This document shows positions 7,114 through 35,062 of a stretch of DNA of 37,187 bases, in pieces. Positions within the stretch are counted from its first letter, which is position 1. Each line of letters begins with the position of its first letter. The DNA is from a virus. A program made the position numbers and the translations under genes. The DNA lies in IMG/VR virus record IMGVR_UViG_3300024062_000022, positions 1 through 37,187 of that record; one strand, given 5' to 3'. The notes under the pieces are model-generated. The model saw nothing but the letters and a program-made list of their open reading frames with translations, searched no databases and was not told the origin of the DNA.

Positions 7114-7139
7114 AGGTAGTAAGTATTATCTACAATTAT

Positions 7140-7574: not shown

Positions 7575-7576
7575 AT

Positions 7577-8578: not shown

Positions 8579-8584
8579 TGTCTC

Positions 8585-8592
8585 TATTTACA
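8585..8592 (-). promoter_or_regulatory. Weak late-promoter candidate before gp15
   Basis: The minus strand reads TGTAAATA, 7 of 8 bases of TATAAATA, ending 6 bp before the gp15 ATG. That is too close for a leader with a ribosome binding site unless the transcript is nearly leaderless, so a chance match in AT-rich DNA is quite possible. Confidence 0.2.
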
Positions 8593-8598
8593 ATAATT

Positions 8599-10014: not shown

Positions 10015-10018
10015 TAAT

Positions 10019-11227: not shown

Positions 11228-11229
11228 AA

Positions 11230-17200: not shown

Positions 17201-19011
17201 ACAATATCACCTACGTTTACTACATTGGTAAATTTAGTATCTAATCCAACAGAGACAACACCATTATCTACTTTAAAAGTTGTTCCTGGATTTGCAGTAT
17301 ATGATCTTCTCGAAAGAACTAAATCTGCATTAAATGTAGATAATCCTACAGAATTTGTTCCATAAACAGACTTAATATCAGAAACAGAATAATCAGTTAC
17401 AGAGTTTATTAATCTACCATTATCAATTCCATTAATAACTATCTGTTCATTTTCTAGGAAATTGCCTGTAGTTTCATATAAAGTCATCTCTGTATCTAAA
17501 GATCCCAAAGCAGTTTTGAGATATCCAGTAGCGTTACTATTTTTGCCTCTAATAAATGCGGGTAATGATAATCCTTCAGAAATTGAAGTGGTTAATCCGA
17601 TAGTAGTGTATGTTCTTATATCAAAAAGACGTAACTCTAATCTACTTGTTTGATCTACATAATCACTTTCTGGAACAAAATCATAAACTCTTGCAACACC
17701 AATAGTAGTGCCAGATTGTACGTCAGGGTCTAAACCCTTACGCTCACTCTGAAGATAAACAACAGCATCAGTCCCAAGTCCTATTGATGGAGCGCCAGTT
17801 CCATTATTTAAAATTGCTAACGTTCCCGAATTATATGGTAAGTTAATTTGGGGAGATTTTTCTGTAGTTCTTGTTTTCTTTACATCTATTAATGTAGGAG
17901 AAATCGTTTCTACATCATACCCTTTGACATATGCCTTTCCTGGACCAATCTGATAAACCATTGAGTCTTCAGATGGATTATTTCCTTCTACGGTAGTCTG
18001 TTCTTCGAAATAAATTCCTCTATTTAATACTCTATCGTTAAGACTGTCTCTAACATTAACAGTAAATGGTTTTACGAAATAATCTCCAGATTCATCAAAA
18101 GTTCTTCTTGCTAATTCTTCTCTGATTAAATTATACTGTGGATTTTCATCAAAAAATTGTGGAGTTCCTCCATTAATTCTAAGAATTTCTACAAAAGAAT
18201 CTGTATTTAAGTCATCAATTTCTCTTTTTGAAAACTTAAGTTCTATCTTAAATCTATCTGCACCAGGAGCAGCAAAATTGGAAAATCCTTTGGAATTGTC
18301 GAATAGAGTATCATCTTCATCAGAATTTACAATAGTTTCTAATACATCAAATCCAACCTTATATGATGGATTAATTCCATACTGGTCTAGTAAAATTGTT
18401 TGTGTTTCTACTCTAGCAAAAACTCCTCTTACAAAGTAGACACCTTCAGATACAGTTACAGCACTACCTTCAGATATAGCATTTTCTGAAATAGTGTTAG
18501 CAAAACCTTCACCCGTCTGAATAAAAGTATTATTCCCAAGAGAAACGTCAGATTCTAAGATTAAAGTTTCTGAACTTGAGAAAGTTTTGGTGTCAAAATT
18601 ATCACCACCACTACCAAGATATTTTACATATAATGTATAATTTCCTTTTTCTGAATCTGTATCAGTTAAGAGAATTACTACTTCTGCACTAACACCACTG
18701 GTTAGACCTTTTATCTTTACTCCTTTAAGATCATTAAAGTAAACAGACACAGGAATACCATTGTATTCTGATTCAATCTGAACAGCATACAATGGATTTT
18801 CATATTTTAACTGCCCAGGTATAACTACAGACCCTTCTTTAAATAAATGCTTACCAAACTGTTCAGTTTGATTTTGTGCAATTGATTGTAGAGTATTTAA
18901 TTCTCTAGCCTGAACCGGATATCCTGGCTTAAATAATACCTTGTAATAATCTTTTTGAGGATCATAATCGTCAAAGTAAGGTGAGACGTTGAGATTGGTT
19001 TCCTGTGACAT
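11230..19011 (-). CDS. Giant DUF4815 virion protein (2593 aa), probable baseplate/fibre-attachment component
   Basis: The N-terminus (N-V-S-P-Y-F-D-D-Y ... F-K-P-G-Y-P-V-Q-A-R-E-L-N-T-L-Q-S, then EQFGKHLFKEGSVVIPGQ) is the hallmark of DUF4815 phage proteins. A second conserved stretch lies near residues 1227-1280 (F-E-Q-P-Y-G-T-K-T-E-S-V-T-P-F). A third lies near 1762-1937 (D-P-L-A-Q-S-F-Y-V, then PVYLPGPQSLEV and F-K-S-Q-N-G-S-T-W-T). Residues about 1440-1478 and 1720-1750 are Thr/Asn/Glu-rich low-complexity linkers. Gly-rich modules recur near 1997-2060 and a GNEVMEY ... RGVDGT module near 2163-2245. It lies between gp8 and gp13, where T4 has 9-12 (outer wedge and short fibre), so a peripheral baseplate or fibre-bearing role is inferred. 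The start follows TAAGGAAG. The reading frame is intact across 7.8 kb. Confidence 0.9.
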   Translation of the reverse strand: MSQETNLNVSPYFDDYDPQKDYYKVLFKPGYPVQARELNTLQSIAQNQTEQFGKHLFKEGSVVIPGQLKYENPLYAVQIESEYNGIPVSVYFNDLKGVKIKGLTSGVSAEVVILLTDTDSEKGNYTLYVKYLGSGGDNFDTKTFSSSETLILESDVSLGNNTFIQTGEGFANTISENAISEGSAVTVSEGVYFVRGVFARVETQTILLDQYGINPSYKVGFDVLETIVNSDEDDTLFDNSKGFSNFAAPGADRFKIELKFSKREIDDLNTDSFVEILRINGGTPQFFDENPQYNLIREELARRTFDESGDYFVKPFTVNVRDSLNDRVLNRGIYFEEQTTVEGNNPSEDSMVYQIGPGKAYVKGYDVETISPTLIDVKKTRTTEKSPQINLPYNSGTLAILNNGTGAPSIGLGTDAVVYLQSERKGLDPDVQSGTTIGVARVYDFVPESDYVDQTSRLELRLFDIRTYTTIGLTTSISEGLSLPAFIRGKNSNATGYLKTALGSLDTEMTLYETTGNFLENEQIVINGIDNGRLINSVTDYSVSDIKSVYGTNSVGLSTFNADLVLSRRSYTANPGTTFKVDNGVVSVGLDTKFTNVVNVGDIVSYASTEFTGDPIYNRVTAVGASGTNFTISSITDVTGVCNGTLPTGSFEVTNILKYQPSLNSRNNSFLTKLNHENVSQISLNETEIIQRRTFNVASFTGSSFSIDIDADDTDLFFESFDEDRYLISYEDGTTELMRQDKFLLSLDGKTVTFNGLSKSSGSNTEVITTVKNIKPNSKNKKLNKVGKITIENSSLVSSGIGTTTLNDGLSYSNVYGTRVQDNEISLNVPDVVRVLAVYESDNTFNPTLSQLQLTGSSGNSNYIVGERIEGKLSGAIAIVTSKVSVDKLEYTYLNTSQFSLGEIVSGKDSEEESIVSAKILSSKNITQNFDFDDGQRDTFYDFSRIIRRQGVESPKKKLTVIFQNYTIDSSDTGEFITANSYSQENFKHDVGFYQGSRLTDFVDIRPRVAPYTLTNKSPFEFDSRNFASDGQYSDYILVPNENILLDYEFYVGRIDTIFLNPDGQFQILSGEPSANPQPAESISTGLSIATVFIPPYVFNTKNINVFMSVHKRYRMQDISLLEDRIHRVERFTTLSMLESKTENFMIKDAETGLDRFKCGFFVDNFSNHQYHNLLNPNFKAAIDTSSNTLRPKHYTTSLDLQLGSEVIEGFTSTFTPNADSSFVSDLGSVNVRKTGDLVTLNYDSVLYFEQPYGTKTESVTPFLVRYWQGTIQLNPSIDVWFDEVARETNATQEVVNRVEREDENITVINNVTVDNEVFVGGAGQVLPNPQTGVAPFDWIQNAKDLLIGVSRLGGNNVAFDNNRNSSNIRTSGTGERRNVIGSDIIHLNVWKRRVDQQSRNLINQLLPPDAATQFLTAIDANNGNARAVINFIPQTGSATVTETNTTTTESTSDVSTIIIPEEIITDTNTETSTENFTEEIRFLRSRNIEFDATGLRPRTRFYPFFEGIDVSNYVIPKLLEVEMISGSFVVGETVISDPVRSVSKEISFRLCTPNHKSGPFDGTGDGTLFKLNPYTLQSFESTYTASSTLLNVDTKSLELQQESEYYGWIEENMRLIGKDSGAVAEIKSTRLVSDNSGRLIGSLFVVNPNVPENPRWINGENTFTLIDTPSLNELTQVFNKFTPNQRINESGGEAEFTSAGTLSITQTNILSTRNVTVLSSFNRNTNNITNTTTNTTTTTISGGNGSESSTDQFTVWENHDPLAQSFYVRDNTGIFLTDVEVFFETKDEELPVTLQIRPMIAGVPSNEVVPFSEVTLDPDQIILSSDGSVPTKFTFSSPVYLPGPQSLEVRSAPIASQQSSVFSVVLLSGSPNYRVYIAELGQNDIETGIKISKQSTLGSLFKSQNGSTWTPSQLEDLKYRLYRADFTTNLGLVKFFNPKLGLGNKKVTVTGTNQFLPLSKKIIVGLGSDGYDATGLVEGASLVQGTATGNLVGLAGSVTTLSVINTGTGYTTGTFTGVELETDTGDGTGAIATLEIDSSGIGTATITNGGLNYLVGDVLSLPSREFGLDVGFGGKVGVTSISVISNTLVIDNVQGEFEVGITSISYVSGVGTNVSTGATVSSIINDPYYDGLHMKITQLNHGMHSSENYVKIEKVRPLLSEVNSTLSSDITTTDTILSLDSVFGFGTFEGQTVSGSYPGYIIVGNEVMEYTNISGNSLTINTRGVDGTLAFSYSSGTRVAKYEFNGVSLRRINKVHNFAEVDRTNHPTTLNSYFIKIDNSDTDFEGSVIGKNRSIISKLYFTNTEKTGRTGSHLSNNIQYEAITPKITNMLPGKTTIKSRVRTFSGTSISGSEKSFIDNGFQNLNLDQINYLGAPCLICSQENESRFITDSPGNRSLSIELDLNTTDSRVSPVIDTVQTNVVLTSNLINSPTGGVNENANYKNDELVRSLNDDNHACIYLSKPIRLKIPANSIKVILKALHMRDNDIRVLYQLYRDDAPESAMNYELFPGFSNYRVDGDGIKRVIDPSQSDGTNDSKVIIGDDPTFKDYEYSVDDLPEFNSFAIKIVLASENQALVPQVKDLRAIATIKPKL

Positions 19012-19017
19012 GCTTCC

Positions 19018-20601
19018 TTAGAATTGCAAAATTACTTTAATATCTTCTTTTTGATTTGATGACCTAGTTATAGAAGGTCTGTTATCAACATAAATTATGT
19101 TTCCAGAATACTTCTCAACTTCTGGATTGGAAACTCCTTTAATAAAGGATTGTCCTAATTGATATGTATTATTATTTATTGTCTCAGTTGAACCATCAAA
19201 ATCAACATTGATCTGTAAATCTACACTATTTTCAAAGTTTATTTCAACACTTCCATTTGAAGTTGGAGCATCAGTAAATCTTTCTAAATTAAATCCATAA
19301 GACGGAGAAGAATTTCTACTTCCATCAGTATTAAATCCTACAAGTCTTCTATCTTGCCAATACTTTAATACTCCCGTATTCTTATCATACGAAATTACTC
19401 TACCAACAGCAGTTACATTAGTATCTAATGTTTGAGTAAAGAAAGAATCTGCGTTAATTGTTACTTCTTTATAAAAATTTGTAGATTGGGTGTTTAATGA
19501 TTTTAATTTTAATGCATACAACGAACTTACTGTCGAATCTTCTAGAATTTCTGAAGATGCATATTTTAATGCATTTTCGACTATACCAAATCTTGAGATT
19601 TGATTTCCTGTAATAAAATCAGGATTTTCTGTGGTGTTTTCAATTCTGGTATAAAGAAGAACATTTGATGCTCCAAGTTCATTATAAATATCAAATCCAT
19701 GACCACCTTTTGGTGGGATAATTACATCAAATACTGGAGCAGTATCTTGAATACTTACTCCTCTGGATACCAAATCAAGTGTCCCGAAAGTATAACCAGA
19801 ACCCCCTTTAGAAATAACAACACTTTCAACTTTCTGGTCGCTATTTAAAATTACCGTAGCAAAAGCACCAGATCCATCTCCTTTAATTGGAACATCTGTG
19901 ATCGTATTACCTGAAGTAAATGTTACACCTACTCCTCTATTTCTAATTTTTGCAATTTTTAATTGTCCACTAGAAGAAGCATGGTTTTTAACTGCTTGAG
20001 TGTCTGTATTTGTTGCCCAATTTTTTGGTGTGGGCATGTAGAATACAGATTCAAATTTTATTAAATCTCTTGGTTTAATAGTATAGAGATATTTCCAAAC
20101 ATAACCATCTCCACTGTTACCTGCTTTTCTTGGTTCTAATGCAATAAATGTAGGTTCATCTAAAGATTGATTTCCTTTGAAATCATTCTCTGGGGATGCT
20201 CCATTATCTAAGCAGATATAAACATTCAAATCTTCATTAATTACATAATAATTTGAAGAGTAGAGACTTGTTGCTCCAGACTGAGGAGAAATATTTGATG
20301 ATGTTATATCATGGCGATACATATCATAAATGGATCCAGATTCCCATTCATTCTTTTTTACAACTTGAGATGCATCTTGAGGTAGGATTTTTGACAACCC
20401 TATCATAGTATCCCAATAATCATTTTCTTGATCAAAAGAGTCTTTAGGTGCTGGTGGAACAACATCCCAATCTGAAGCATATTCAGTAGCATTTGGCAAT
20501 CCAATAAACGCATAGTAAGAATTATCATCCGAGTTAGTAACTTTAGATACAAAATTACTAGCGTTCAATATTCTTAACTGATCAGTTATAATTGCCGACA
20601 T
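19018..20601 (-). CDS. 8: Baseplate wedge protein gp8
   Basis: This is a wedge component that sits with gp7 and gp10 in the T4 baseplate. The key match is GDGYVWKYLYTIKP at residues 164-177 (T4: GDGYVWEYLFEIPP). It is supported by the Pro-rich N-terminal region W-D-V-V-P-P-A-P-K-D (46-54), D-Y-W-D-T-M-I-G-L-S-K-I-L-P (61-74), and the C-terminal ending IIYVDNRPSI then Q-K-E-D-I-K-V-I-L-Q-F (T4: MIYMENRPPI ... EEINILFTF). At 527 aa it is about 190 longer than T4 gp8 (334). Residues about 215-305 contain a GGSGYTFG-type Gly-rich module that T4 lacks. It follows the 4029-aa gene by 25 bp, with a late-type octamer in that gap. Confidence 0.92.
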   Translation of the reverse strand: MSAIITDQLRILNASNFVSKVTNSDDNSYYAFIGLPNATEYASDWDVVPPAPKDSFDQENDYWDTMIGLSKILPQDASQVVKKNEWESGSIYDMYRHDITSSNISPQSGATSLYSSNYYVINEDLNVYICLDNGASPENDFKGNQSLDEPTFIALEPRKAGNSGDGYVWKYLYTIKPRDLIKFESVFYMPTPKNWATNTDTQAVKNHASSSGQLKIAKIRNRGVGVTFTSGNTITDVPIKGDGSGAFATVILNSDQKVESVVISKGGSGYTFGTLDLVSRGVSIQDTAPVFDVIIPPKGGHGFDIYNELGASNVLLYTRIENTTENPDFITGNQISRFGIVENALKYASSEILEDSTVSSLYALKLKSLNTQSTNFYKEVTINADSFFTQTLDTNVTAVGRVISYDKNTGVLKYWQDRRLVGFNTDGSRNSSPSYGFNLERFTDAPTSNGSVEINFENSVDLQINVDFDGSTETINNNTYQLGQSFIKGVSNPEVEKYSGNIIYVDNRPSITRSSNQKEDIKVILQF

Positions 20602-20619
20602 TTTTATAGTTTTTTTATT

Positions 20620-20631
20620 TATTTATTTATG
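20620..20631 (-). promoter_or_regulatory. Putative late promoter(s) before gp8
   Basis: The minus strand reads CATAAATAAATA, giving two overlapping 7-of-8 matches to TATAAATA (20624-20631 and 20620-20627). They sit on the TAA stop of the 4029-aa gene (20627-20629), about 20-25 bp before the gp8 start. There is no good Shine-Dalgarno between it and the ATG. Confidence 0.5.
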
Positions 20632-23600
20632 AAGAATAAAGATCATTCTTTAATGGTTTAGATCTCTGGATAATTGCAGAAGTCTCAATTCCAGAAATTC
20701 CATTTTGATATACATCAAATTGTTTTTCATTAGATCTAGTCAAATTACTAATTCTACCCCAACTGTAATCGCCATAATAATAAGTTTGACCTAAACTTAC
20801 TAATCCATTATAATCCGAAACACTTACAACTACTTGTGCAATTGAGGTAGTTCCTACACCAGAAACTGTAGTTTGTGCAATAGAAACTTGAGAAACTCTA
20901 TAAACATTATCTATAAAAGTAGATCCAATTCCAATCACATTATTACTTTCGTCAAGTGAGGTTAATCCATATCCAACATTACTATCTCTAATAGTAAAAT
21001 AGTATCCTGTTTGGATTCCACTTATAGAAGTAGATGCTGAACCTGTTATCTCAGAATCTCTTATAAATGAATTTTCTGGAATAAACAGGTCAAAAACAAT
21101 TCCAGTAGAAGCGACTCCAACAATAGAAGTAGTTCCAATTCCAGTAACGATTCCAAAATCACCTTCATATTCTACTTTTGTGATAGTTTCAAAAGTTCTT
21201 TCTGGAAATTCAACAAGAACTGATGGTGGTGTAGATGAAGTATAACCAGAACCAGAATTTGTAAGATTTATTATAGAAACTGAAGAACCAGACAATGTAG
21301 CAGTTCCAGTAGCAGTCGTTCCAAGTCCAACTGGGGAAGAAATAATAACCGAAGGTGTTGTGCTATAACCAACACCACTCTCATTAATTTCTATGGAAGT
21401 TATAGTTCCTGTCGATGATACTACGGCAGTAGCAGCACATGAAACTAAATTATCTTGATTAAAGATTTTTATAGTTTTAAATGTATTGTCAATTGCACCA
21501 AGTTCATCAAAACTATCGAAGAAAGTCTTTAAGTTATCAACAAATAGTTCATTATCACTAATAGAAAGATCTTTTATCAAATACGCAGTTGGATTTATGG
21601 ATGGCGATAATGATTCTCTTGCCTTTGAAACCACAAATCCTCTAGAAGAACTTGCTGATCCAACAAAAGATGCTGAAGATAAGAACAAATCATTTCTTTG
21701 CTTACACCATATTGCATTTCTAAAAAGATTTTCATTATCCGAAATTCCTCTACCAGAATAAACATTAGTTCTAACTGCATCTGATGAAATAATTTCATTA
21801 ATAATTCTAGATTTTTCCTTCAGATTTTGATCATCTGAATCTAATCTAAGACTATCACCAACCTTTACATTTCCTAAAATATCAACATCCCGAACGTCAA
21901 TTTCGTTTGTTCCTTCGTAGAATAAAATTTTCGAAGTTGATACATTAGTAAGTTTTGATGACAAGTCATCAAAAGATTGAGGGGCTTCTATGAATTCAAT
22001 CACACTTCCGCCATTAAACACATAAGATTCTCCCGGAACTTGGAGGACATCATTAATGGTGATAATTAAGTTGTTTGCAAGATTGAGATTAGATCCTGGT
22101 TTTGCTTCGAATGAAGCTTGTTTTCCATCAATTTTAAGAGGGAAAAATCTCCTAGTACCATCTATTAAATCATTAATCGGGTCAATAGAAATTATCTTAC
22201 CAAAATGCCAAGAAGAAATTTCATCTTCATATGTTTCTTCGATGGAGATTTGGAATTCTTGGAATGATAATGAAGAATCTGTCGGAATTCCTTCTAACCC
22301 ATTAATAGGGACAGTGAGAATGTCATCTTTTTTGTATGAATACCCATAATTTTGTATTTCAAAGTTAAGAACACTACTATCCAAACTTACTTGAATGTTT
22401 ACAGTTGCTTGAGTTCCAACACCAGATTGTGGAGTAGAAGAACTATAAGTTAACGGTAAATTTGAATAAGGTAATGGAGTATCAAATACTATCGTTGGAG
22501 GCATAGATGATATAAATCCACCTACAGTTTCAGTAATGTCTACGGAAATAACATTACCATTATTAACAACAGCAGTCCCAATAAATTGAATAGTAGGAGA
22601 TTCGGAAATTTCAGTGGCAACACCCACATTAACTGTCTGAATTCCTACTCTGTAACCAGACCCACTGTTTCCAATACTAACAGAGGAAACTGTTCCAAGA
22701 CCAGAGATGATAGCAGTGCCACCAGCAGAAACTAATGGTTGATAACCAAACCCAGCAGAAGAACCCACAGAGACGATAATACCTCCTCTAGGTACACTTG
22801 ATGTATTGGTGTCATAAACTGCTTGTATAGGGTCTCCTGTGAAGGTTATAGAGGTTATTCCTGGAGACTCTACGAGATCATAAGAACCTTGAATTGGAAT
22901 AGTACTGTTTCTCGCAGGTTGCTGAAGAACACTTCTAATTAAAGTAATTCCATTATTAGTGGAAATTCCTGTAATATCTTGACCATCAGATTGAATAGTG
23001 AATGTGTCATCAATTCCGTTAAATTGATCAGAAACAGAATCAAAGATGTAATTATTACTATAAGGAGTTATTCCAGTTCCTTCTACTCCTGATTTCAAGA
23101 AAATTCTTCCACTGAATGTAGAAGATGTTTTTATGCTATTAAAATCGACTTCTTCTGGGTCAGATGGATTTTCATTAGGGACTTCTCCTTTAGGTGCATC
23201 TGCAAAATAAATTGTATTGTCTACAATATTATAATTTGCTTTTACTTTTCTAACAATAGACCCAGATAAATGGTTTTCAATTTCAGTTCCTAATTGAGAT
23301 CTAGTCACTAAAACATTATTTTGGATATTATTATAATTAACGACGTTTATTTTAATAATCTCACCATTAATCTTAAGTAAATCTCCACCAGATAATTGTA
23401 AGGCATCATCAACAGAAACAATGTTACTGAGTGTAGTTACGTCTGTCGTAAGTGATGTAGTTTTTGCAGTAGCAACTACTGGAGATTGAATTACATTGTC
23501 AATGGAAATAAGTGCTTTTGTATTTTGCTTTTTAGAATTAAACTGATGATTTGCCCCAACCCCAACATTTGCAATGTCCAGATAAACAGGAGGTACTGCT

Positions 23601-26600
23601 AAGGCATCAGTAGCAGATCCAGATACTCTAATTTTTAAATCATTAATCTTAACGACATAGACTGATGATGGAAGAATGTCAGTAGAACCTATTCCGGAAA
23701 TAGTTGTTGTTGATATTCCAATAGGAGATCCAGTAGCTCCCCCCTGATTATATACAACTTCTTCACCAGTACTAAAGAAATGATTAGGGACTAGGAAAGT
23801 ATCTTCATCAAGATCTATATAATCTGTGCTTGTTCCATCAAATGTTTTTTTGAAGATTGGATTATCGTTATGGGTAAGATTAAAAGATTTTTTGACATCA
23901 TTAAGAGTTCCAGTATATAATCCATAATCTTGTTTAATTTCAGATTTATTTGTTTCTATTCCAATAAAATCATACTGAGTACTACTCCCAAAAACAAATT
24001 TAAATAATCTTACTTCATAATCAATGTTTGCATCCGGAGTAAAAAATAATACAACTTTTTCGGATACACCAGAACCAATAGTTCCGGTAGATAAAATACC
24101 TAAATTAGAACCAGTATTTACAATACCATATTCTATTTGATTGGAAGTATTTGCATCTGGATTAAACAAAGATACAACTTCACTGAATTGATATTCACTA
24201 TTTGTCAAGTCCTCGATAGAAACTGCATAGTATGCTGAATTATAATCACTCCCAGCAAAAGAAGAAATTGCTACTGTAGATGGAGATGGTGAAGAAGAAA
24301 TTGCTATGAATTCGGATTCAATGTAATTTTGCAACATTGTTTCTGTTGCTACTCCAGTTGCAGAGGTATTTGCAATTCCAATAGTTAATGAATTTATGGT
24401 ATATGTAGAAGCAGTAGATACATTTGGTGTAAATGAAACTATTAGATTTGAACCAGAAATAGAAGCATCAAATGTTCCTATTCCTGTTCCATACGATGAT
24501 GAGAAATTAGATTCTAAACTTGCATAATCAGTAATGTATACATCAGTGTCATCATGAATGACATTTATTTCTACAGATTCATATTCATTATTATCCGTAT
24601 CAGAAATTAAAGTGTGAAGTTTGAGTGCTCTATAAGTGCTTCCAATAGAAACAATCGTAGAAATACCTGATGTTCCTTGTGGTAAAGTCGTTGAATGAGT
24701 ATTTAAAGATACTACATCACCTAAAGATAAAGTACCAATTCCAGAAATAGTCTCATCCAAATTAAAACTACATACATTTAAATGGTAGTCATTAATGCTA
24801 AATTTATCTGGATAGTAAAGTAATTCTATGTTATCCGAAATAATTCTTGCATCAAAATATCCCAAATCGTCTTGGGAAAATAATTTTGCATACTGATTGA
24901 TGTAGGTAAATGAATTATCATGAATTAGTGAGACTATATTAAACATAGATTCACTAGAGAATAATTTATCTGTAGAAGTCACAAGATACTTTACATATCG
25001 AACATCAGAATAATGTTTTCTGTTAACTACAGTAAAATGTTCAAATCTAGGACTACTATTGAAAAATTCTGAAATATTGTCAATGTCAAGAACTCTATTT
25101 CCAGATGATTCTCTATAATCTTGAACTAATCTGCTATTGAAAATAATTTGATTTGAGGTAGTTAAATCTCCAATTGTAAATAAATTTTCCCTAGCTAGAT
25201 CGAAATTAAATACACAATCTAAATCAATTACAGAATCTAAATTCTGAATTGCTCCTATAAATCCTAAATTTTGGTTGGTAGAAATTCCACTACTTATATC
25301 TGGAGATGATGGAATTTCAAGAGTAGAAAACTTTTTAAATCCAGAAGTATGATTTAATGAAGAAACTGGATCATTCCAGGTTTCAAAAGGAACTTCTGAT
25401 TTTACAACATATGAAAAATACTGATAATAATGATTATCATGTATTCTCTGGAATGTGTCATTTAAAAATCCCTTTTCAAACTTCCAACCTTTTCTTCTAT
25501 CAGAAGAATTTGAAATTTTATAATACCCATTTGATACTATTGAATCTTGGATAATTGATTTATTTCCACTAGTTTCTCCTATCAAAGTACTGCCAATTTT
25601 AAATGTGTCGGAAGAAGCAACTATAAGAATTCCTGGCTGTGGATTCCAATTCTGAACGACCCCTGTAGAATTGTCTGAAATAATTCTTTCACTAATAACA
25701 AAGTTGTTTTGCTTAAGTATAGAATTGAAAGTTGGGAAGTATGATTCTGGTATTACTTGAGGATTAGATAAATCCGAATTAAAGATACCTAAAATCTCAT
25801 CCGATCCTATAAGATCAGATACACTATAAGTAAAGTTTGCATTAATTCCACCTATATTTGGATCGGTTGATGTAATTTCAAAAAACTTATATTCAAAATC
25901 GGAGGAATTATATGATCTTGTAGTTACTCCTATTTCTGGTTCATCAATTGCAACTCCTTCAACAAATACTTTTGTTCCAACTGTAAATGGGAAATCTTCA
26001 ACAGAACTAAACTGGGTTTCTAAAGTAACGGTTACATTTTTTAGTACAGGATCATAAGTTACATTTGTAATTTTTAATCCATTTGAATTTGAAATTGGTA
26101 TTATTTTAGGTTGAATTTGATTAATACCTGAAGTATTCTTTAAAATGTTTACTTTTCCTTCACTGGGTATATATTCTAATTTGACATCATTTACAACTTT
26201 ATTGGTCAGTCCATCAATCACAACTAAATCTGTGTCTGTTATATAAGAAAATCCTGCTGTCAAGATTTCAATTCTATCAAAAACTGATAATGCATTTACT
26301 TCTAAAATTGTTGGTATTTTTGCAGAAGGAACAATAGTGGGATCGATAGAATAATTAAATCCTATAGAATCGAAGTAATAGTCTTTTATTTTTCCAATTG
26401 TATTAGAAGACGCATAAACATATCCATCTTTTCCAGAATCACTTTCTATATAAAGTTCCGGAATTGAAGAAAACTCAATAGTTTTATTTTTCAAGACTAA
26501 TTCAGAAATCGGTCCAGTTAAACTAGTATTGGTTGTAGAATATTTAAATGTTGCTTCAGAAGATGTATAAGATTCTTTCTCTGGGTAATTTTGAAGTTCA

Positions 26601-29600
26601 TATGAAAAAGTATTTACTCCAACATTAGTAACTTCATGAAGTCCATTAAATTTACTTGAAATTAAATTGATTGCAGAGAAGTTAATTTGATTTTTATCGA
26701 CTATTAATTCTTTTTTGGTAGGATTAGTTCCAGTTAAAATTGGACTTAACTTATAAAATAATTTTTTCTTTGTATTTGAGTTTATTTCTATTGATAGATT
26801 AGCATCAGAATCCACACCAACTTCTCCACTGGTCGTTAATTTATATTGCGTATTATTTGCAGGATAAATTTTATCTAAGAAATTCTCATCAGAGAAAAGT
26901 TCTAATTCAAATGCAGATTTTAATGAAGAACCTCCCGTAGAATAAGAAAGGCTGCTATCAGAGAGATCAAACTTTAGTTTTTGATACTCTATTAATTGTA
27001 TTTCGGGATTAACTTTTGAAACTACTCCTTCAGTTCCAGTAGACGTTAAATCTACATAAATCTTATTATTTAAGTTATAAAGATTAGTAGAAAGTTTAAA
27101 TGAATTTGAATCAACTGGCGTCACATAATAAAGGTTTTCATTTACTAACCCATCAAATCCACTAGTCTTTTCAAATAAAACTTTTTCCCCAAAAATCAAT
27201 TGATGATTATTAATGGTTACAGTATTATCCACTAAATCTACTGAGGATACATTTAGTGGATCTACTACAAATCTTCTATTGGTATCATTATATTTTACTA
27301 CTACAGTTTTAGTATTTGTAGGTAAAACTTCTACATCAACAGTAGATAATAAAGAAAGACCATGAGATTCTGCAAGAGAAACATTAACTACATTTTTTAA
27401 TAACTCAGTAGTGAGTACATTATCTTTTGCAGTTTTTAAACTATGATATGTATTAGTTCCTATTCCAGTAAAGAATAATAAATTTGCTGGAATAGTACCT
27501 ATCCCGGCATAATTACCTAATGAGTTTAATCCAACAGGGAGTGTAGATAAACCAATAGTATCATTAGTAAATTTAGTAGCATAAAGAGAATCAAAAGAAC
27601 TGAGTGATGTAGACACTCCAGAACTAGTTTCTGATACCTCTATAGAATCTCCAATGTTTGAAGAATATGAAAGTAAATCGCCATTTTTTAATTCGTGTTT
27701 TGGAAGATAAATTGCTCTGGTTGGAATTGAAATTGAAGTATTACCTACACCTGGATTTGAAAAATAAAGTGTAGATGTTATTCCAACACCAAATGATGTC
27801 CCAATTCCTACTGACTCTATAGGATTAAAATAAATTTCTTTATTTACTTCTGAATTGTATGTGTTTGAAGTTTTATAATTCAGTGTAAATTTTCTAGGAT
27901 CTTCTTTAAGAATAGAACCAGAAGAGTAAGTGCTTAATCCACTAGTTCCATTTTGTGCTCTCAAAATTCTAAATCTAGAAGACAAGAAGTCTACAGAAAG
28001 AATTTTTATGTCTTCATTTTCAATTCTATAAATGTCATTTTCTTTAACTCCCGATAAGTTACCAGAAACACTGACATAAGTAGAGATTCCAGTATCTGTA
28101 ATTGATGAAATGCCAGATGATAACCTAAATGAGTTGTTATTTACATTTACTCTTAAGTATTGGGGTGATTCTGAGGGAGAAAATACATTAACATTAGTGT
28201 CATTTACTATATTATGAGGCAGAGTTGAATAACCAACATAAAAACTCGAATTTTCTTTATATAATTCAGCATCTTGAATTGAGATTATAGATGAAATTCC
28301 TATACTCTCAATAGATTTACCCGAAATTTTAGATACTTCTCCAATTTTCTTTTTTCTATCCGTCAAAATAACATTATCACCAACTTTATATCCATCTCCG
28401 GCAATTTTTAACACTAAATTATCAATTTTTCCTGAGATTACTGATTTTACTTCAGTATCAATATTTAAATCTGAAGAATTTAAGAAATAATCATAAGTAC
28501 TTCTATCTTTGTTTTCATTGTAAGGTTTTGTATTTCTTAACCAATTTTGAGTGCTTATGTCAAGTTGGTCTTGATTTGATGCAAAGTCAAAATTAAATTC
28601 TATCTGTGATGACTTGTAAGTATTACCGATCAAATATGGAAATGCTGGTACTCTATTTCCATCTTCATTTAATTCAGATTCAAAAGTTGAGAAGTAAGCA
28701 TATACTCCATTTGGAAACTCTGGAGTAACACAAAATCTTCCATTATGCTCATCAAGATCTCCAGAATTATCAAATTCGTAATCTTCTAAGAAAAACCCTC
28801 CATTAAATGAAAGACCAAATTCACTTGCAGATGGTCTATTTTCACTACTACTAACTTTTAATGAGTATCCTGAGGAAATTAGTTTGATTCCACCAGTTCC
28901 ATCAGTATTTGTATATGCATATGGTCCATAAATTGGATTTCCGTCATATGCCCAACCAATTATTCCAGAGTGTGCTAAAATGTTTCCTTCTTGTAGATTA
29001 TCAGATAAAATGTCTGAGATAAAGGATTTAACTCCATTGCCAAAGTAAGTACTTAATAATTGTGATCTTAACGGTCTACTAGCATAAAAATGAGTATACT
29101 GAAGACCACCTCTAGGTCCAGAAATTAAATAACCATCGTCGCCATTTTTTTCTGTATTAAAGATACTTAAAATAGAAGGATACCTTTTAGGAGTTAAAAT
29201 ATTCCAAGATTGAATATTTGTGAAAAGTTTTGCTTCCTCTCCAGCAGATAAAACATCTACAGAAGTGCTACTGTTAGTATAACCTGTTCCACTAGAGGAT
29301 ATTACTACATCAATAATGCTTCCAGATTGTATTATTGGAACTAAAACTGCACCTCTTCCATCACCATTTACAACTAAAGTAGGAGGGGAATTGTATTCAA
29401 CACCAGGATTTAGAACGAATGCTGAAGTTATTCTTCCATCTTCAATAGTTAAACCAATGTCCCCATTTTCGCCAGACTTAAACGTTATGTTTGGTTGTTC
29501 TTGGTAATTAATGATTTCCTGATTTCCATATTGAATTCCACTATTTTTTACAAATATTGATTTTATTTCACCTCTAACAACTGGTTGTATCTGACATTCA

Positions 29601-32600
29601 AAATCTACCGAAGATTGATTCAATGTTGGAATCTGTAAATCTCCAATAATATCAACTATTATTGGTGGGTAATTGAAAACATGCTCTTCTCCGCCAGTCG
29701 AAGTTAAATCAATATACTGATCTGTTTCTAAAAGAAAATCTTCATTTCCACTCAATGAAATATCATAAAGTCTAAATGTATCACTATCAATAGGATTTAC
29801 AAAATATGTTGTATTAGTTGAAAGTCCACCAATAGCAGATCCATTTGCAGTATAGACAATTTTTTCTCTATACTTAAATCCATGATTTTTTATTGAAATA
29901 GTATCCGAAACTATGTTGATCTGAGATTTTGATGTAAAGGCGATTAATTCCTTGTTTGTATACCCAGATCCACCATCAATAACATTAATAGATGATACTT
30001 TTCTTTTTTTTAATTTTGATCTAAAAGATTGACTACCTAAATCACCAGAAGATGCAACAGAAATAAAATTATCATCAGAAAAATTTGTTTCTGTTGAGTA
30101 TAATTTTATTGTGGTAATACCTACAACTTTAACGTAATAAGTTGAATTTGTAGACAATCCTGAAATAGTAGCATTATTTCCTGGATCATAAATTACTTCT
30201 TCAAGATCAGAAAAATTATGTGCGTCTTCAAATGTAATCTGATTTCCACTGATAGATTGAGTATTTACAATTAATGATTTTGAATACTCATACTGTATTA
30301 AATTTGCTTCTGCAATAGCTCCAAATCCATTACCACCATTGATAACAACTTGTGGAGTTTTAGAATAATTAAATCCAGAATTAATGACATCAATTCTTTC
30401 TAATGATCCTGATACTGAAGCAGTAGCAACTGCTCCAGATCCCGAAGATGAATCTATAAAAACTTCTGGAGGGTTAATTACATCATAACCAATTCCACCA
30501 GAAGTTACTTCAATAGATTTTATTTCTCCATAATAAAGATTATCCTCAGACTTATAATTCTGAATTTCTACACCATTAATAAAAAGACCAATTGGACCAG
30601 TTATAGTATTATTTTTTTCCTTAGTGTTTATTGGAGATTGTAATTTTCTTATTAATTTTTGTGGTTGTAATAGTTTTGATTCAAATAAATTAGTTTCCGG
30701 ATTTAATTCATTAAATTTAAAAAACTCAACTTTTACTCCAACAGAGGAATAATCCGAAAAATCCAAATAAGTATTAGAAATAATCGATTCTTTATTTCTT
30801 GCAATTTTTATTGTTTTTTCATTAATTCTCTTTACGTATCCAATTTCTTGAAAGTTGGAGGATTTTAAGATTACAAGATCCCCAGTCAAGAATGAGTGCG
30901 AAGCAGATACACTCAGATTTATTTCATGTTTATTAAATGAAGAAACTAGAGCACTTAAATCAGTAATTCTAATTTTAGTATTATTATAATTTGGTAGTGA
31001 TGGTGATGTCACATACACACTTTCATCATTTCTATCATAGTAAGTATTTGAAACATTAGAATTGTAAATAGACAATTCTGGATAATTTACAATTTCTGGT
31101 TTGGAAATTAATTTACGAATAGAAGTAAAAATAAAGTTTCCTGTAGAATCTTTTGGTAGTTCACCCTGCCCTCTAATAACTAAAGTGTTTTCGTTATTGA
31201 TCGATTGAACGACACCAGTGGCATTTGTGTTTGTCAGTTCAAACTTATCTCCGATGTTAAAATCATTAACATCATAAGTTTTAATACGATAAGTATTATC
31301 TGAAGTATCCCCCAAAGCAATAATACTTTCAATCTCATATCTAGATGAGACATTATATATCCAACTATCAAATTTGAGAGAATCTAAATCACTTTTCCCT
31401 AAAGTTGATGACTTAATTATATCTCCAGGTCTTAAATTTTTATTATTGTCGTCGTATTCAAATTCTGAAATTACACCAGTAATTCTAACTCTTATTTCAT
31501 CATCACCATCAATAGCAAATGAATATGAAGTATCTTTTACTTCCTCTCTTGGATTTATTGTTTGATCGATTCCTTCACACTCAAAAAATTGATTTATGCT
31601 TTTTGATTGGTAAGTAATATTTACAATAGAACCGTTTGGTTGATTGATTATGAGTTGTCCACTATTCGGAAATCCCAACGTCGAATCAACATCTAAATGA
31701 GTGTCACCAGAAAATGCTCTAGTAACTAATCTTGTTTTTGGATTAATAGAAAAATTTCCAGTAGTTGTTCCTCTGGTTTCAATATCTTTATCGTAGTCAA
31801 AATCTATACTAATCAAATAATAAATTTTCGTTAGTGCTTCTGAAGATAATTCTGATGTATCATCCAGAAATACACTATCCCTGAAAAGATTAGAAATTTC
31901 TATTTCTTCTACTGATGTGACTGTCCCACTAGACCCATCTAAATTAAAAAGAGTTCTATTTTCTAAATCTAAAGGATTCCCTTCAATTTTTTCAACAACA
32001 AGATCTTTAGTGATTCTATAAGAAGATGCAGAAGGTTCTAGAAGATATTCCTTTGGTAAAATTATCTCGACAGGTTTCCCATAAAGAGCACCAAATAAAA
32101 TTTTAAATGATTCCTTAGTTCCTTTAGATGAATAAAAATTATTTGATTGCTTTACAAACAGACTTTCATTTAAGTCCTCAGAAAAAGATCTGTTTTCAAA
32201 TCCAGGTGTAATTTGAGTTTTTACCTTTTTAAAGAACTCTGATAATAAAATAGTATTTAAATTATTTACAATAGAATCTGAAGAATGCTCTGCAGATTCA
32301 GATTGAGAAAATGTCAGCTCATCAGTTGACGTGTTAGTATTGTATGAGGTTACTCCAGAAAATCCTCTATAACAATTTTCAAAAGTTGTTTCAGTTTTAC
32401 TCTCATAAGAAATAATCTCATCATTAATCTGTATCAAACCATAATTATCTACAAATCCTGCAGTTGATTCTACATTAATGACAGTATCAAAAAAATCAAC
32501 GTTAGCAGTTAATGTAGTAGAGTTAATCAAATTTGAAACATTATCGACCTTAACATATTGGTCGATGTTATTCATCAAATCATAAGGATTTCCCCTAGAC

Positions 32601-32716
32601 TCTAAAGACTTATAATACTGATCTAAAAATTCTGATAGTAATGGAAATTCTGATCTAACAAACTCCGGCAGCTGATTATTCAGAATGGAAGAAATCTTAA
32701 CTCTTTTCTCTAACAT
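20627..32716 (-). CDS. Giant baseplate protein (4029 aa) with gp7-like N-terminal core and YHYH-type domain
   Basis: The N-terminus holds the family signal. Residues 18-50 (E-F-V-R-S-E-F-P-L-L-S-E-F-L-D-Q-Y-Y) and 157-220 (NNFYSSKGTKESFKILFGAL, then Y-G-K-P-V-E-I) parallel the C-terminal core of T4 gp7 (Y-D-F-Y-S-T-K-G-I-E-A-S-Y-K-F-L-F). A YHYH-like domain spans about 1247-1365 (GWAYDGNPIYGPYAY ... FPNGVYAYFST). The rest is beta-rich and repetitive. Gly-rich G-S-G-Y modules occur near 735-805, 910, 1050-1160, 3340-3460 and 3775-3837. T-Y-Y-V/I-D-S modules occur near 855, 965, 1860 and 3020. RG-type modules occur near 66-125, 330-375 and 3085-3160. T4 gp7 is 1032 aa. The gene lies between gp6 and gp8, exactly the gene 7 position. 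No frameshift is seen over 12 kb. The gp7 assignment is probable; the roles of the added modules are unknown. Confidence 0.9.
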   Translation of the reverse strand: MLEKRVKISSILNNQLPEFVRSEFPLLSEFLDQYYKSLESRGNPYDLMNNIDQYVKVDNVSNLINSTTLTANVDFFDTVINVESTAGFVDNYGLIQINDEIISYESKTETTFENCYRGFSGVTSYNTNTSTDELTFSQSESAEHSSDSIVNNLNTILLSEFFKKVKTQITPGFENRSFSEDLNESLFVKQSNNFYSSKGTKESFKILFGALYGKPVEIILPKEYLLEPSASSYRITKDLVVEKIEGNPLDLENRTLFNLDGSSGTVTSVEEIEISNLFRDSVFLDDTSELSSEALTKIYYLISIDFDYDKDIETRGTTTGNFSINPKTRLVTRAFSGDTHLDVDSTLGFPNSGQLIINQPNGSIVNITYQSKSINQFFECEGIDQTINPREEVKDTSYSFAIDGDDEIRVRITGVISEFEYDDNNKNLRPGDIIKSSTLGKSDLDSLKFDSWIYNVSSRYEIESIIALGDTSDNTYRIKTYDVNDFNIGDKFELTNTNATGVVQSINNENTLVIRGQGELPKDSTGNFIFTSIRKLISKPEIVNYPELSIYNSNVSNTYYDRNDESVYVTSPSLPNYNNTKIRITDLSALVSSFNKHEINLSVSASHSFLTGDLVILKSSNFQEIGYVKRINEKTIKIARNKESIISNTYLDFSDYSSVGVKVEFFKFNELNPETNLFESKLLQPQKLIRKLQSPINTKEKNNTITGPIGLFINGVEIQNYKSEDNLYYGEIKSIEVTSGGIGYDVINPPEVFIDSSSGSGAVATASVSGSLERIDVINSGFNYSKTPQVVINGGNGFGAIAEANLIQYEYSKSLIVNTQSISGNQITFEDAHNFSDLEEVIYDPGNNATISGLSTNSTYYVKVVGITTIKLYSTETNFSDDNFISVASSGDLGSQSFRSKLKKRKVSSINVIDGGSGYTNKELIAFTSKSQINIVSDTISIKNHGFKYREKIVYTANGSAIGGLSTNTTYFVNPIDSDTFRLYDISLSGNEDFLLETDQYIDLTSTGGEEHVFNYPPIIVDIIGDLQIPTLNQSSVDFECQIQPVVRGEIKSIFVKNSGIQYGNQEIINYQEQPNITFKSGENGDIGLTIEDGRITSAFVLNPGVEYNSPPTLVVNGDGRGAVLVPIIQSGSIIDVVISSSGTGYTNSSTSVDVLSAGEEAKLFTNIQSWNILTPKRYPSILSIFNTEKNGDDGYLISGPRGGLQYTHFYASRPLRSQLLSTYFGNGVKSFISDILSDNLQEGNILAHSGIIGWAYDGNPIYGPYAYTNTDGTGGIKLISSGYSLKVSSSENRPSASEFGLSFNGGFFLEDYEFDNSGDLDEHNGRFCVTPEFPNGVYAYFSTFESELNEDGNRVPAFPYLIGNTYKSSQIEFNFDFASNQDQLDISTQNWLRNTKPYNENKDRSTYDYFLNSSDLNIDTEVKSVISGKIDNLVLKIAGDGYKVGDNVILTDRKKKIGEVSKISGKSIESIGISSIISIQDAELYKENSSFYVGYSTLPHNIVNDTNVNVFSPSESPQYLRVNVNNNSFRLSSGISSITDTGISTYVSVSGNLSGVKENDIYRIENEDIKILSVDFLSSRFRILRAQNGTSGLSTYSSGSILKEDPRKFTLNYKTSNTYNSEVNKEIYFNPIESVGIGTSFGVGITSTLYFSNPGVGNTSISIPTRAIYLPKHELKNGDLLSYSSNIGDSIEVSETSSGVSTSLSSFDSLYATKFTNDTIGLSTLPVGLNSLGNYAGIGTIPANLLFFTGIGTNTYHSLKTAKDNVLTTELLKNVVNVSLAESHGLSLLSTVDVEVLPTNTKTVVVKYNDTNRRFVVDPLNVSSVDLVDNTVTINNHQLIFGEKVLFEKTSGFDGLVNENLYYVTPVDSNSFKLSTNLYNLNNKIYVDLTSTGTEGVVSKVNPEIQLIEYQKLKFDLSDSSLSYSTGGSSLKSAFELELFSDENFLDKIYPANNTQYKLTTSGEVGVDSDANLSIEINSNTKKKLFYKLSPILTGTNPTKKELIVDKNQINFSAINLISSKFNGLHEVTNVGVNTFSYELQNYPEKESYTSSEATFKYSTTNTSLTGPISELVLKNKTIEFSSIPELYIESDSGKDGYVYASSNTIGKIKDYYFDSIGFNYSIDPTIVPSAKIPTILEVNALSVFDRIEILTAGFSYITDTDLVVIDGLTNKVVNDVKLEYIPSEGKVNILKNTSGINQIQPKIIPISNSNGLKITNVTYDPVLKNVTVTLETQFSSVEDFPFTVGTKVFVEGVAIDEPEIGVTTRSYNSSDFEYKFFEITSTDPNIGGINANFTYSVSDLIGSDEILGIFNSDLSNPQVIPESYFPTFNSILKQNNFVISERIISDNSTGVVQNWNPQPGILIVASSDTFKIGSTLIGETSGNKSIIQDSIVSNGYYKISNSSDRRKGWKFEKGFLNDTFQRIHDNHYYQYFSYVVKSEVPFETWNDPVSSLNHTSGFKKFSTLEIPSSPDISSGISTNQNLGFIGAIQNLDSVIDLDCVFNFDLARENLFTIGDLTTSNQIIFNSRLVQDYRESSGNRVLDIDNISEFFNSSPRFEHFTVVNRKHYSDVRYVKYLVTSTDKLFSSESMFNIVSLIHDNSFTYINQYAKLFSQDDLGYFDARIISDNIELLYYPDKFSINDYHLNVCSFNLDETISGIGTLSLGDVVSLNTHSTTLPQGTSGISTIVSIGSTYRALKLHTLISDTDNNEYESVEINVIHDDTDVYITDYASLESNFSSSYGTGIGTFDASISGSNLIVSFTPNVSTASTYTINSLTIGIANTSATGVATETMLQNYIESEFIAISSSPSPSTVAISSFAGSDYNSAYYAVSIEDLTNSEYQFSEVVSLFNPDANTSNQIEYGIVNTGSNLGILSTGTIGSGVSEKVVLFFTPDANIDYEVRLFKFVFGSSTQYDFIGIETNKSEIKQDYGLYTGTLNDVKKSFNLTHNDNPIFKKTFDGTSTDYIDLDEDTFLVPNHFFSTGEEVVYNQGGATGSPIGISTTTISGIGSTDILPSSVYVVKINDLKIRVSGSATDALAVPPVYLDIANVGVGANHQFNSKKQNTKALISIDNVIQSPVVATAKTTSLTTDVTTLSNIVSVDDALQLSGGDLLKINGEIIKINVVNYNNIQNNVLVTRSQLGTEIENHLSGSIVRKVKANYNIVDNTIYFADAPKGEVPNENPSDPEEVDFNSIKTSSTFSGRIFLKSGVEGTGITPYSNNYIFDSVSDQFNGIDDTFTIQSDGQDITGISTNNGITLIRSVLQQPARNSTIPIQGSYDLVESPGITSITFTGDPIQAVYDTNTSSVPRGGIIVSVGSSAGFGYQPLVSAGGTAIISGLGTVSSVSIGNSGSGYRVGIQTVNVGVATEISESPTIQFIGTAVVNNGNVISVDITETVGGFISSMPPTIVFDTPLPYSNLPLTYSSSTPQSGVGTQATVNIQVSLDSSVLNFEIQNYGYSYKKDDILTVPINGLEGIPTDSSLSFQEFQISIEETYEDEISSWHFGKIISIDPINDLIDGTRRFFPLKIDGKQASFEAKPGSNLNLANNLIITINDVLQVPGESYVFNGGSVIEFIEAPQSFDDLSSKLTNVSTSKILFYEGTNEIDVRDVDILGNVKVGDSLRLDSDDQNLKEKSRIINEIISSDAVRTNVYSGRGISDNENLFRNAIWCKQRNDLFLSSASFVGSASSSRGFVVSKARESLSPSINPTAYLIKDLSISDNELFVDNLKTFFDSFDELGAIDNTFKTIKIFNQDNLVSCAATAVVSSTGTITSIEINESGVGYSTTPSVIISSPVGLGTTATGTATLSGSSVSIINLTNSGSGYTSSTPPSVLVEFPERTFETITKVEYEGDFGIVTGIGTTSIVGVASTGIVFDLFIPENSFIRDSEITGSASTSISGIQTGYYFTIRDSNVGYGLTSLDESNNVIGIGSTFIDNVYRVSQVSIAQTTVSGVGTTSIAQVVVSVSDYNGLVSLGQTYYYGDYSWGRISNLTRSNEKQFDVYQNGISGIETSAIIQRSKPLKNDLYSS

Positions 32717-32722: not shown

Positions 32723-34660
32723 TTATTTTCTAATTAAGGAACCGTTTGAATAGCTTGAAGTTGCCTGATAATTTGTACCAGAAATATCATTACCAGAAGA
32801 AATGTTATCTTCTAAAATATTTAAGTCACTGTTACTAATATCTAGTTGCAAATATAAGTCTTGTAATCCAATTACATCATTAGATTTTGGAGTCACTGAA
32901 ATTTCAATACTATTAAATCCATTTTTGATCTTTTGTGTTCCTGTTATATTTAATATACTTAATTTCATCTCTCCTTTCTCATAATCAATTGATCCAGCAT
33001 TATTTTTTATAATTACTGGAGAACCATTTTCAATTTTGAAAATTGAAAGTCTTCCTTTTTTACTATTAGTTGGAAAGTCTGTCAAATAAACGTTTCCAGT
33101 TACTCCTGCAATCCGAAAAGCACTTGACTTGATGTTATAACCAGTGCTGCAATTTGGTAAGTGGAAAGCATTTCCATAACAAATTTCATACTCAGAGAAT
33201 TTGTTTAATTCTGCTTTCAGATCTCTTCTAATTCTAATCTTTGTAATGTTTGATGTAATTGCTGCATTGCCACTATCAATCAAATTCAAAAACTTACTGT
33301 ATTTAAATCTAGATCCATAAGCATTTAATTCTGATGAGTTTGAATACTTTGTAATATTATCTGATACAATGCTCAGAACTTCTGATCTTGAATTTGCCCT
33401 ATTAGTATCAAAGTAAATTACGGTATCGTATTCAATGTAAAGATACTTTAGATCAACTATCTCAGGAACAATTCCAGCAACATTAAATTTTTTAAGTCTT
33501 GCTTTAATGTTATCTTTTACTTGATTAGAAACAAATTGCCCATTAATTGGTTTGATTGAGATAAAAACTCTACCGTACTTTGGAGGATTTAACTCTTCTC
33601 CACCATACGCAGAAACTGATTCTGCCTCCGGATAAATCGTGGGAATTAAAGATTCGTAATCTGAGGAAGTAACTGCTCTATTTTGAGCAGAGTAAATTCT
33701 TGGAGCATACTTTCTCACAAACTCCACAGACTCTATTGATTTTCCACCACGAGAAGTAGAATCTGTACTTACAAGTGAAAAATCTTGTGTTATTAACCTA
33801 TCTCGATCATCAAGAATTCTACCTGCAAAACTAAAGTTCAATGCACCATTTGATCCCTCACCTGAACTTATGTTATAAGAAACCTCAACAACATTACCAT
33901 TATCTAATTTTTTACCAAAAATACCATCACCAAAAATAAGTTCGTATCTTTGATCTTCAATTTCTTGAATGTAAAAAACTCTTGATGTTGAATCGACATC
34001 AAAAATAGTGTTTGCTAGATTAAATTTTCTAACTACACTAGATCCTTCACTATCTCTGACATAGACATTTAATGTAGAGGTATCAATGTTTGGGTTAGAT
34101 AAAATAAATTTTTGATTTGGAACTAAAGAATCAACTACAAAAGACTCTGAAGTGTAAGTACCTTCAATGACTTCAATAGAATTAAACTGTGCAATGTTAT
34201 TAACAATTGGTACAGTAATAGTCTCTGGAATTGCAAATGTAAATGATTTTGATGCACTTCCAGTACCAAAAGAATTTGTAGTTGCTACAATTCCTTTCTG
34301 GAGAATTAATTTTAATGGTTTATTTTCTGCTGTCTCATTGTTTATAGGAAGATTCGTTATGTCAACAAAGAAACTAATGTTTGCTCTTGAAGATGTTACT
34401 GATCTAGGAACATATCCAATGTTCCTAGCAAGAGAAACAACATTCTCCCTTAGAGTAGCACTATCAATAAAAACCTCATTACTAAGCATGTTAGCATTGT
34501 ATGAGGTAATGTATGTGTTATAAGATAACGTATCGATAATGACTGAAAGATTTGACCCCTCAAAATCATAGTCAGTGAAACTTGAATTCGCTCTTAAGTA
34601 ATCGCGAATTGTTTCTTTTATTTGGTCGAAATCTAAATTTGAAAAATTTGCTAATGTCAT
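32723..34660 (-). CDS. 6: Baseplate wedge protein gp6
   Basis: This is the Baseplate_J-type protein that forms the inner ring of the wedge with gp25 and the gp7 core. It is 645 aa (T4 660). The N-terminus (F-S-N-L-D-F-D-Q-I-K then SSFTDYDFEGSNLSVIIDTL) is the typical start, followed by S-A-T-L-R-E-N-V-V-S-L-A-R-N-I-G-Y (68-84). Residues about 258-275 read YELIFGDGIFGKKLDNG, a strongly conserved baseplate_J element. R-A-V-T-S-S-D-Y-E-S-L-I-P near 322-335 is also conserved. It starts directly after the gp25 stop (TAG then ATG, no gap) and ends 6 bp before the 4029-aa gene. It lacks the Gly-rich modules of its neighbours and is close to T4 length. Confidence 0.95.
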   Translation of the reverse strand: MTLANFSNLDFDQIKETIRDYLRANSSFTDYDFEGSNLSVIIDTLSYNTYITSYNANMLSNEVFIDSATLRENVVSLARNIGYVPRSVTSSRANISFFVDITNLPINNETAENKPLKLILQKGIVATTNSFGTGSASKSFTFAIPETITVPIVNNIAQFNSIEVIEGTYTSESFVVDSLVPNQKFILSNPNIDTSTLNVYVRDSEGSSVVRKFNLANTIFDVDSTSRVFYIQEIEDQRYELIFGDGIFGKKLDNGNVVEVSYNISSGEGSNGALNFSFAGRILDDRDRLITQDFSLVSTDSTSRGGKSIESVEFVRKYAPRIYSAQNRAVTSSDYESLIPTIYPEAESVSAYGGEELNPPKYGRVFISIKPINGQFVSNQVKDNIKARLKKFNVAGIVPEIVDLKYLYIEYDTVIYFDTNRANSRSEVLSIVSDNITKYSNSSELNAYGSRFKYSKFLNLIDSGNAAITSNITKIRIRRDLKAELNKFSEYEICYGNAFHLPNCSTGYNIKSSAFRIAGVTGNVYLTDFPTNSKKGRLSIFKIENGSPVIIKNNAGSIDYEKGEMKLSILNITGTQKIKNGFNSIEISVTPKSNDVIGLQDLYLQLDISNSDLNILEDNISSGNDISGTNYQATSSYSNGSLIRK

Positions 34661-35062
34661 CTATCGTGTTTGCTGTAATGCAAATGATAATTGTTGCGGT
34701 GAAGCATTAATGCCTATGATTCTATAAGTTAGTGATACATCAAATTCTAAAGTAGAATAGTTTGGTGCTACTTTAACATCGATTAAATTAACTCTTGGTT
34801 CATAAAGATTGATCGATTCTCGAATTTGTCCTTTGATAGTATCTGCAGAAAACCCACTCATGTTCTCAAATAAAGAATTTGAGACAAAACTTCCAAATTC
34901 TGGATTAAAAGGTTTCTCACCAGGTTGAGTTAATACAATATTACGAATAGAACGAGAGATTGCAGTCTCATTGTTGAGTGCAATCAAGTCATTATTCAGT
35001 GGATTCATTAAGAATGACCCACTGATATCTTTAAATCCTTTGCTTATTCGTTCTAAGGGCAT
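34661..35062 (-). CDS. 25: Baseplate wedge protein gp25 (lysozyme-like fold)
   Basis: This small wedge protein nucleates the sheath at the baseplate and belongs to the GPW/gp25 family. Its 133 aa match T4 (132). Features are F-L-M-N-P-L-N-N-D-L (residues 17-26), S-I-R-N-I-V-L-T-Q-P-G-E-K-P-F-N-P-E-F-G (38-57) and Y-E-P-R-V (92-96), the family's conserved E-P-R motif. It is translated directly into gp6 and is preceded by a late-type octamer that overlaps the stop of the 80-aa gene. In T4, gene 25 lies elsewhere; gp25 next to gp6 is a common arrangement in marine T4-like phages. Confidence 0.95.
   Translation of the reverse strand: MPLERISKGFKDISGSFLMNPLNNDLIALNNETAISRSIRNIVLTQPGEKPFNPEFGSFVSNSLFENMSGFSADTIKGQIRESINLYEPRVNLIDVKVAPNYSTLEFDVSLTYRIIGINASPQQLSFALQQTR

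Follow-up and report, generated by a model that had tools for sequence, protein, structure and literature searches.

A giant T4-like marine cyanophage protein in the gene 7 slot, with a probable N-terminal baseplate wedge core

The giant gene and its neighbours

The window analysed here, a viral fragment of 37,187 bases, carries a T4-like virion gene cluster on its minus strand. The cluster comprises gp25, gp6, a giant gene of 4029 codons, gp8, a 2593-aa DUF4815 ('VrlC') protein, gp13, gp14, gp15, gp16, gp17 and gp18, where the names of genes without a Pfam match were assigned from gene order and resemblance to annotated cyanophages. The giant frame runs from an ATG at 32716 to a stop at 20627 with no internal stops and starts six bases past the end of gp6. 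The order gp25/gp6, gp7, gp8, which is conserved in relatives, is present in the window, and the placement of a 4029-aa gene between gp6 and gp8 in the first-pass annotation is correct in its coordinates, with the strand being minus and the neighbours confirmed by Pfam. The wedge genes are as follows:

34661-35062, minus strand: gp25 baseplate wedge subunit, positioned as the annotated gp25 of P-SSM2 and P-TIM68
32723-34660, minus strand: gp6, the expected partner in a (gp6)2-gp7 wedge trimer (Pfam Gp6-like_1st E=3e-16, Gp6_C-I 2e-6)
20627-32716, minus strand: giant gp7 homologue, 4029 aa, 441 kDa (phrog_2885 baseplate wedge subunit, full-length profile match of 2968 bits, best stretch residues 2-3368)
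19018-20601, minus strand: gp8 baseplate wedge subunit (Pfam Phage-Gp8 5e-18)

In P-TIM68 and S-B05 gp7 and gp8 are separated by a further gene (gp9/10-like in P-TIM68, at 28951-31395), which is absent from the window, where gp8 comes directly after the giant with only 20602-20626 between them. Elsewhere in the cluster, between gp16 and gp17, positions 5749-7113 encode a 454-aa protein that ends in a DUF6321 domain (E=4e-22).

A frame of this size might be an assembly artefact, with several genes joined by missing stop codons or misassembly, and the unusual length is the sole point in favour of this. Against it, the isolates P-TIM68 (4307 aa), P-SSM2 (5195), S-B05 (4024) and S-8S53 (3891) carry colinear full-length proteins in the gp6-gp8 slot. 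In two independent contigs, with 96% and 87% identity across residues 1-355, the frame stays open for 3688 aa, as far as the fetched DNA extends, and frames of the giant type are open over >3600 aa in dozens of further independent metagenome contigs. Synonymous versus non-synonymous codon changes relative to the two near contigs just described reveal constraint, and with it purifying selection, over the whole compared length of the giant. Isolate colinearity, independent open contigs and constraint together refute an artefact, to which we assign practically no likelihood, and we conclude that the 4029-codon frame is a real, intact gene.

Resemblance of the N-terminus to the T4 gp7 core

The N-terminal ~320 residues are divided as follows:

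32549-32698, minus strand: N-terminal helices of the putative wedge core, residues 7-56 (T4 gp7 from ~642; seen through bridging families, low-confidence helices in the model)
32267-32539, minus strand: inserted small beta-barrel ('RGF') module, copy 1, residues 60-150 (absent from the gp7 of phages Mendera, X1 and phiM12)
32042-32263, minus strand: helix and FYSSKGTKESFK motif, residues 152-225 (strongest T4 gp7 match, 725-758)
31757-32020, minus strand: probable counterpart of T4 gp7 domain V (767-843), residues 233-320 (sequence match; Z 7.2-7.7 at background level, same register)

Residues ~185-275 of the giant resemble T4 gp7 725-802 far above chance. In hhalign, 71 sequences compared with seven T4-like gp7 proteins gave 95.9% and E=6e-9, aligning residues 185-273 with T4 725-802, and the reversed control of this comparison returned nothing. 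The aligned stretch includes the motif FYSSKGTKESFK at residues 194-205, the T4 gp7 counterpart of which is FYSTKGIEASYK at 734-745. When a T4-like gp7 profile was run against all window proteins, reversals and 200 shuffles of the giant, only the giant was matched, at 22.5 bits against 6.0 for the best shuffle. In a search of all PDB sequences with a profile built from five cyanophage N-termini, the T4-type gp7 chains 9f4a and 5hx2 ranked first (E=6.5e-5 and 1e-4); the next match, at 0.5, was unrelated, leaving gp7 chains as the only ones above chance. Sequence searching turned up no solved cyanophage baseplate, this profile matching T4-type gp7 only, and a PDB sequence search with the whole protein returned nothing.

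Short gp7 proteins with an N-terminal core (498–1007 aa) bridge the two ends of this comparison, aligning to T4 642-828 (E=7e-10) as well as to residues 7-330 of the giant (E=5e-19). The gp7 cores of Mendera, X1 and phiM12 begin at residue ~2-10 and extend the homology to the N-terminal helices, where it is invisible pairwise. The first-pass annotation had likened residues 18-50 and 157-220 to the C-terminal core of T4 gp7, and the profile comparison that it proposed as a check did find similarity. The second of these parallels stands through the motif at 194-205, whereas residues 18-50 gave no significant pairwise match to T4 gp7 and parallel it only via the bridging families. The match is indeed to the core, but not to the extreme C-terminus of T4 gp7, as the counterpart spans residues ~642-850 of 1032. 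Equally, the core does lie at the N-terminus of the giant but is not continuous, a barrel module of ~90 residues interrupting it at ~60-150, with a second copy after domain V (325-416).

Several searches limit how far the resemblance reaches. Pfam gave no Gp7_5th, Gp7_6th or Gp7_helical match on the giant, whereas T4 gp7 itself matches all of these, and no counterpart of T4 gp7 domain VI was found in the giant. The N-terminal part of T4 gp7 (~640 residues) seems to be missing from the short gp7 relatives as well. PF23786 (Baseplate_wedge) matched residues 12-224 at E=7e-4, under the Pfam cut-off, and was not counted; a PF06841 control search was uninformative. The predicted structure of the wedge core has a mean pLDDT of 69.6 (helices ~45-65), and Foldseek found no significant PDB match for a model of residues 1-500. 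With a second-look aligner, 9f4a, 5iv5 and 5hx2 align to the model at domain V in the register of the sequence match (model 230-235 to gp7 759-767), at Z scores which are background level, no better than those of unrelated barrels, and were used for register alone. Taken on the profile comparisons, the bridging families and the 9f4a and 5hx2 matches, the first ~320 residues are homologous to the region by which T4 gp7 keeps the baseplate wedge assembled, and the main interpretation of the first-pass annotation is supported.

Repeat modules and the gp7 size series

The remainder of the giant, ~3,700 residues, is composed mostly of strand-rich modules of putative role, and three kinds of short module recur in the giant: GSGY in nine copies, RGF in two and YYV in five. 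The mapped modules after the core are:

31469-31744, minus strand: 'RGF' small beta-barrel module, copy 2, residues 325-416
30311-30532, minus strand: GSGY repeat modules, residues 729-802
30068-30220, minus strand: YYV barrel module, residues 833-883
29741-29884, minus strand: YYV barrel module, residues 945-992
29264-29587, minus strand: GSGY repeat modules, residues 1044-1151
28679-28969, minus strand: YHYH domain with degenerate signature (YAYF), residues 1250-1346 (Pfam E=6e-25)
27062-27205, minus strand: YYV barrel module, residues 1838-1885
23597-23782, minus strand: YYV barrel module, residues 2979-3040
21212-21433, minus strand: GSGY repeat modules, residues 3762-3835

Beyond the giant, the same virus has four copies of the GSGY module in gp14 (8599-10014) and one each in gp8 (19018-20601) and the sheath protein gp18 (2-2128), and one weak copy of the RGF module is found in VrlC.

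A model of residues 700-1450 is strand-rich and confident over most of its length (mean pLDDT 81). Foldseek/VIA searches with it yielded for the most part small barrels (E1 enzymes, EF-Tu, tail tubes), which we do not take as an indication of function, and no structural match was seen for its GSGY part. The YYV barrels can be aligned with that of the phi92/K1F endosialidases over 70–72 residues at 2.4–2.5 Å, with 20–24% identity and Z of 6.1–7.2, a resemblance that we treat as a lead only. The YHYH domain (PF14240) scores 88.7 bits against a cut-off of 25, covering 94-183 of the 193 profile positions, and has been proposed to be a tail-associated zinc hydrolase (PMC7824862). In the giant, its C-terminal signature reads YAYF (1339-1342), at positions that vary little or not at all among 55 relatives, and H1249 and D1258 are kept; the histidine-rich zinc-binding signature proposed for the family is not present. 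Hydrolase activity of this domain in the giant is doubtful, because the signature is YAYF throughout the 55 relatives.

Proteins in the gp7 slot have lengths of 498, 503, 1007, 1032, 1454, 1937, 3048, 3891, 4024, 4029, 4307, ~4446, 5195 and 6180 aa. Far from being one of the longest proteins to be expected in such a phage, as initially supposed, the giant is mid-sized and ordinary for its family (S-SM1 6180, P-SSM2 5195 aa). Its closest parallels, gp7 of Prochlorococcus phage P-SSM2 (PSSM2_111, 5195 aa), P-TIM68 gp086 (4307 aa), the S-B05 'baseplate wedge initiator' (4024 aa) and PHROG 2885, occupy the same slot. The three phage proteins are colinear with the giant over nearly their whole length, at roughly 20–50% identity per 100-residue stretch, share its N-terminal core, YHYH domain and repeat modules, and differ in length by insertions; the S-8S53 protein lacks most of residues ~2550-2950. 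In P-SSM2 and P-HM1 the gene goes by the name gp7, and in Bellamy, S-B05 and others by that of T4 gp7, 'baseplate wedge initiator'; the DLP6 paper includes gp7 in its listing for T4-like phages. Both the size class and the gp7 name are already in public records, and the giant is a further member of a gp7 family known from many marine cyanophages. No description of the N-terminal placement of the core, or of the size series, was found in the literature examined.

More distant members differ in what surrounds the core. T4 gp7 (1032 aa) shares with the giant the slot between gp6 and gp8 and the wedge core at 642-850, made up of the helices, the FYSTKG motif and domain V, but has ~640 residues before the core and ~180 after it, whereas in the giant the core is N-terminal, contains the barrel insert and has ~3,700 residues behind it. 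The gp7 proteins of Stenotrophomonas phage Mendera (503 aa), Xanthomonas phage X1 (498 aa) and Sinorhizobium phage phiM12 (1007 aa) have, like the giant, an N-terminal core followed by GSGY modules, but lack the barrel insert and are 4 to 8 times shorter. S-SM1 SSM1_102 (6180 aa, T4-GC969; gene 822-19364) has the slot and core of the giant, but its core is split into residues ~5-107 and ~614-797 by ~500 GSGY-rich residues lying inside the first RGF module. The gp7 core is extended on opposite sides in different lineages, giving proteins of 500 to 6200 aa. The S-PM2 protein S-PM2d081 (4531-13677, 3048 aa), annotated as hypothetical, is the gp7 homologue of that phage, its core being confirmed.

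Proposed placement, origin and competing explanations

We suggest that the giant is very probably the gene 7 baseplate wedge protein of a T4-like marine cyanophage, with its core in the wedge and the rest at the periphery. The N-terminal ~320 residues (helices, FY-S-KG motif and domain V), with a barrel module inserted within them, would pack with two gp6 chains to form a wedge unit, and by analogy with T4 and related systems six such units would make up each baseplate, in which case gp7 would contribute about 2.65 MDa. The chain of RGF, GSGY and YYV repeats and the degenerate YHYH domain, mostly strand-rich, would most likely lie at the baseplate periphery, carrying or contacting fibres or the cell surface, and may form, facing the host, the very large peripheral structure envisaged in the first-pass annotation. 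Relatives of the giant are virion proteins: the S-CREM2 homologue ORF122 was detected by mass spectrometry in purified virions with 91 unique peptides and 27% coverage (PMC10665884), and SSM1_102 was likewise detected in the virion of S-SM1 (PMC3037559). A peripheral placement fits published work on AlgoCIS, in which the gp7-like part is described as laterally exposed and fibre-binding, and as a hotspot of evolution and re-engineering in contractile systems (PMC8894135). It fits, too, the finding that S-PM2d081, the slot homologue of S-PM2, had by day 39 of a chemostat experiment on host-phage coexistence become one of the ORFs carrying non-synonymous mutations (PMC9910659), so that the question of the giant may bear on host adsorption.

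T4 gp7 has been described as absent from cyano- and pelagimyophages and apparently substituted by VrlC (PMC7029224), and the window does contain a VrlC/DUF4815 protein at 11230-19011. On that account the giant would be a peripheral structural or adsorption protein merely occupying the gene 7 slot. The gp7 core, however, sits in the giant; VrlC was not matched by the T4 gp7 profile, is additional to the giant and is located after gp8. Seven cyanophages, examined over their whole genomes, each have the core once and in no other gene, and a T4 gp7 family search through cyanophage genomes lands only in the core motif of the giant (5/7 genomes). A separate gp7 gene, which would have told against the first-pass reading, is found in none of these seven complete relatives, which suggests that this virus, of which the window is a fragment, would have no second gp7 either. 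We consider a substitution by VrlC, in which no gp7 signal was found with the T4 profile, highly improbable, and the statement that cyanomyophages lack gp7 appears, from these profile matches, to be wrong as far as cyanophages are concerned.

A different question is whether a normal short gp7 of about 500 aa, comprising the core and GSGY modules, was fused to a separate adhesin-like gene, so that the rest would be mechanically unrelated to the wedge. Short gp7s of this very composition exist, and the presence of a YHYH domain and the alignment of YYV modules to a phage endosialidase barrel, at 20–24% identity, could reflect such a partner. Yet GSGY modules are spread along the entire giant, RGF modules lie both in and beside the core, and family members form a graded size series from 1454 to 6180 aa. 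Because of this module spread and these graded sizes, stepwise growth is suggested over one fusion, which we regard as unlikely; it is mostly a matter of origin and compatible with the giant being a gp7 wedge protein.

More speculatively, it may be that different T4-like lineages have kept the gp7 core as a constant anchor and attached large structures to opposite sides of it, ahead of it in enteric T4-likes and behind or inside it in cyanophages, and that the marine cyanophage chain took over the peripheral and host-contact work of T4 gp9-gp12; we put this combined proposal forward as a tentative possibility that we do not favour at present.

Among the products of abundant ocean viruses, few are as large as giant baseplate proteins, whose public names are inconsistent, ranging from gp7 to hypothetical, structural protein and 'large exoprotein'. 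The core homology found here corrects the published claim of gp7 absence and delimits the wedge anchor at residue level, and the series from 500 to 6200 aa could be used for studying how a phage host-contact platform grows.
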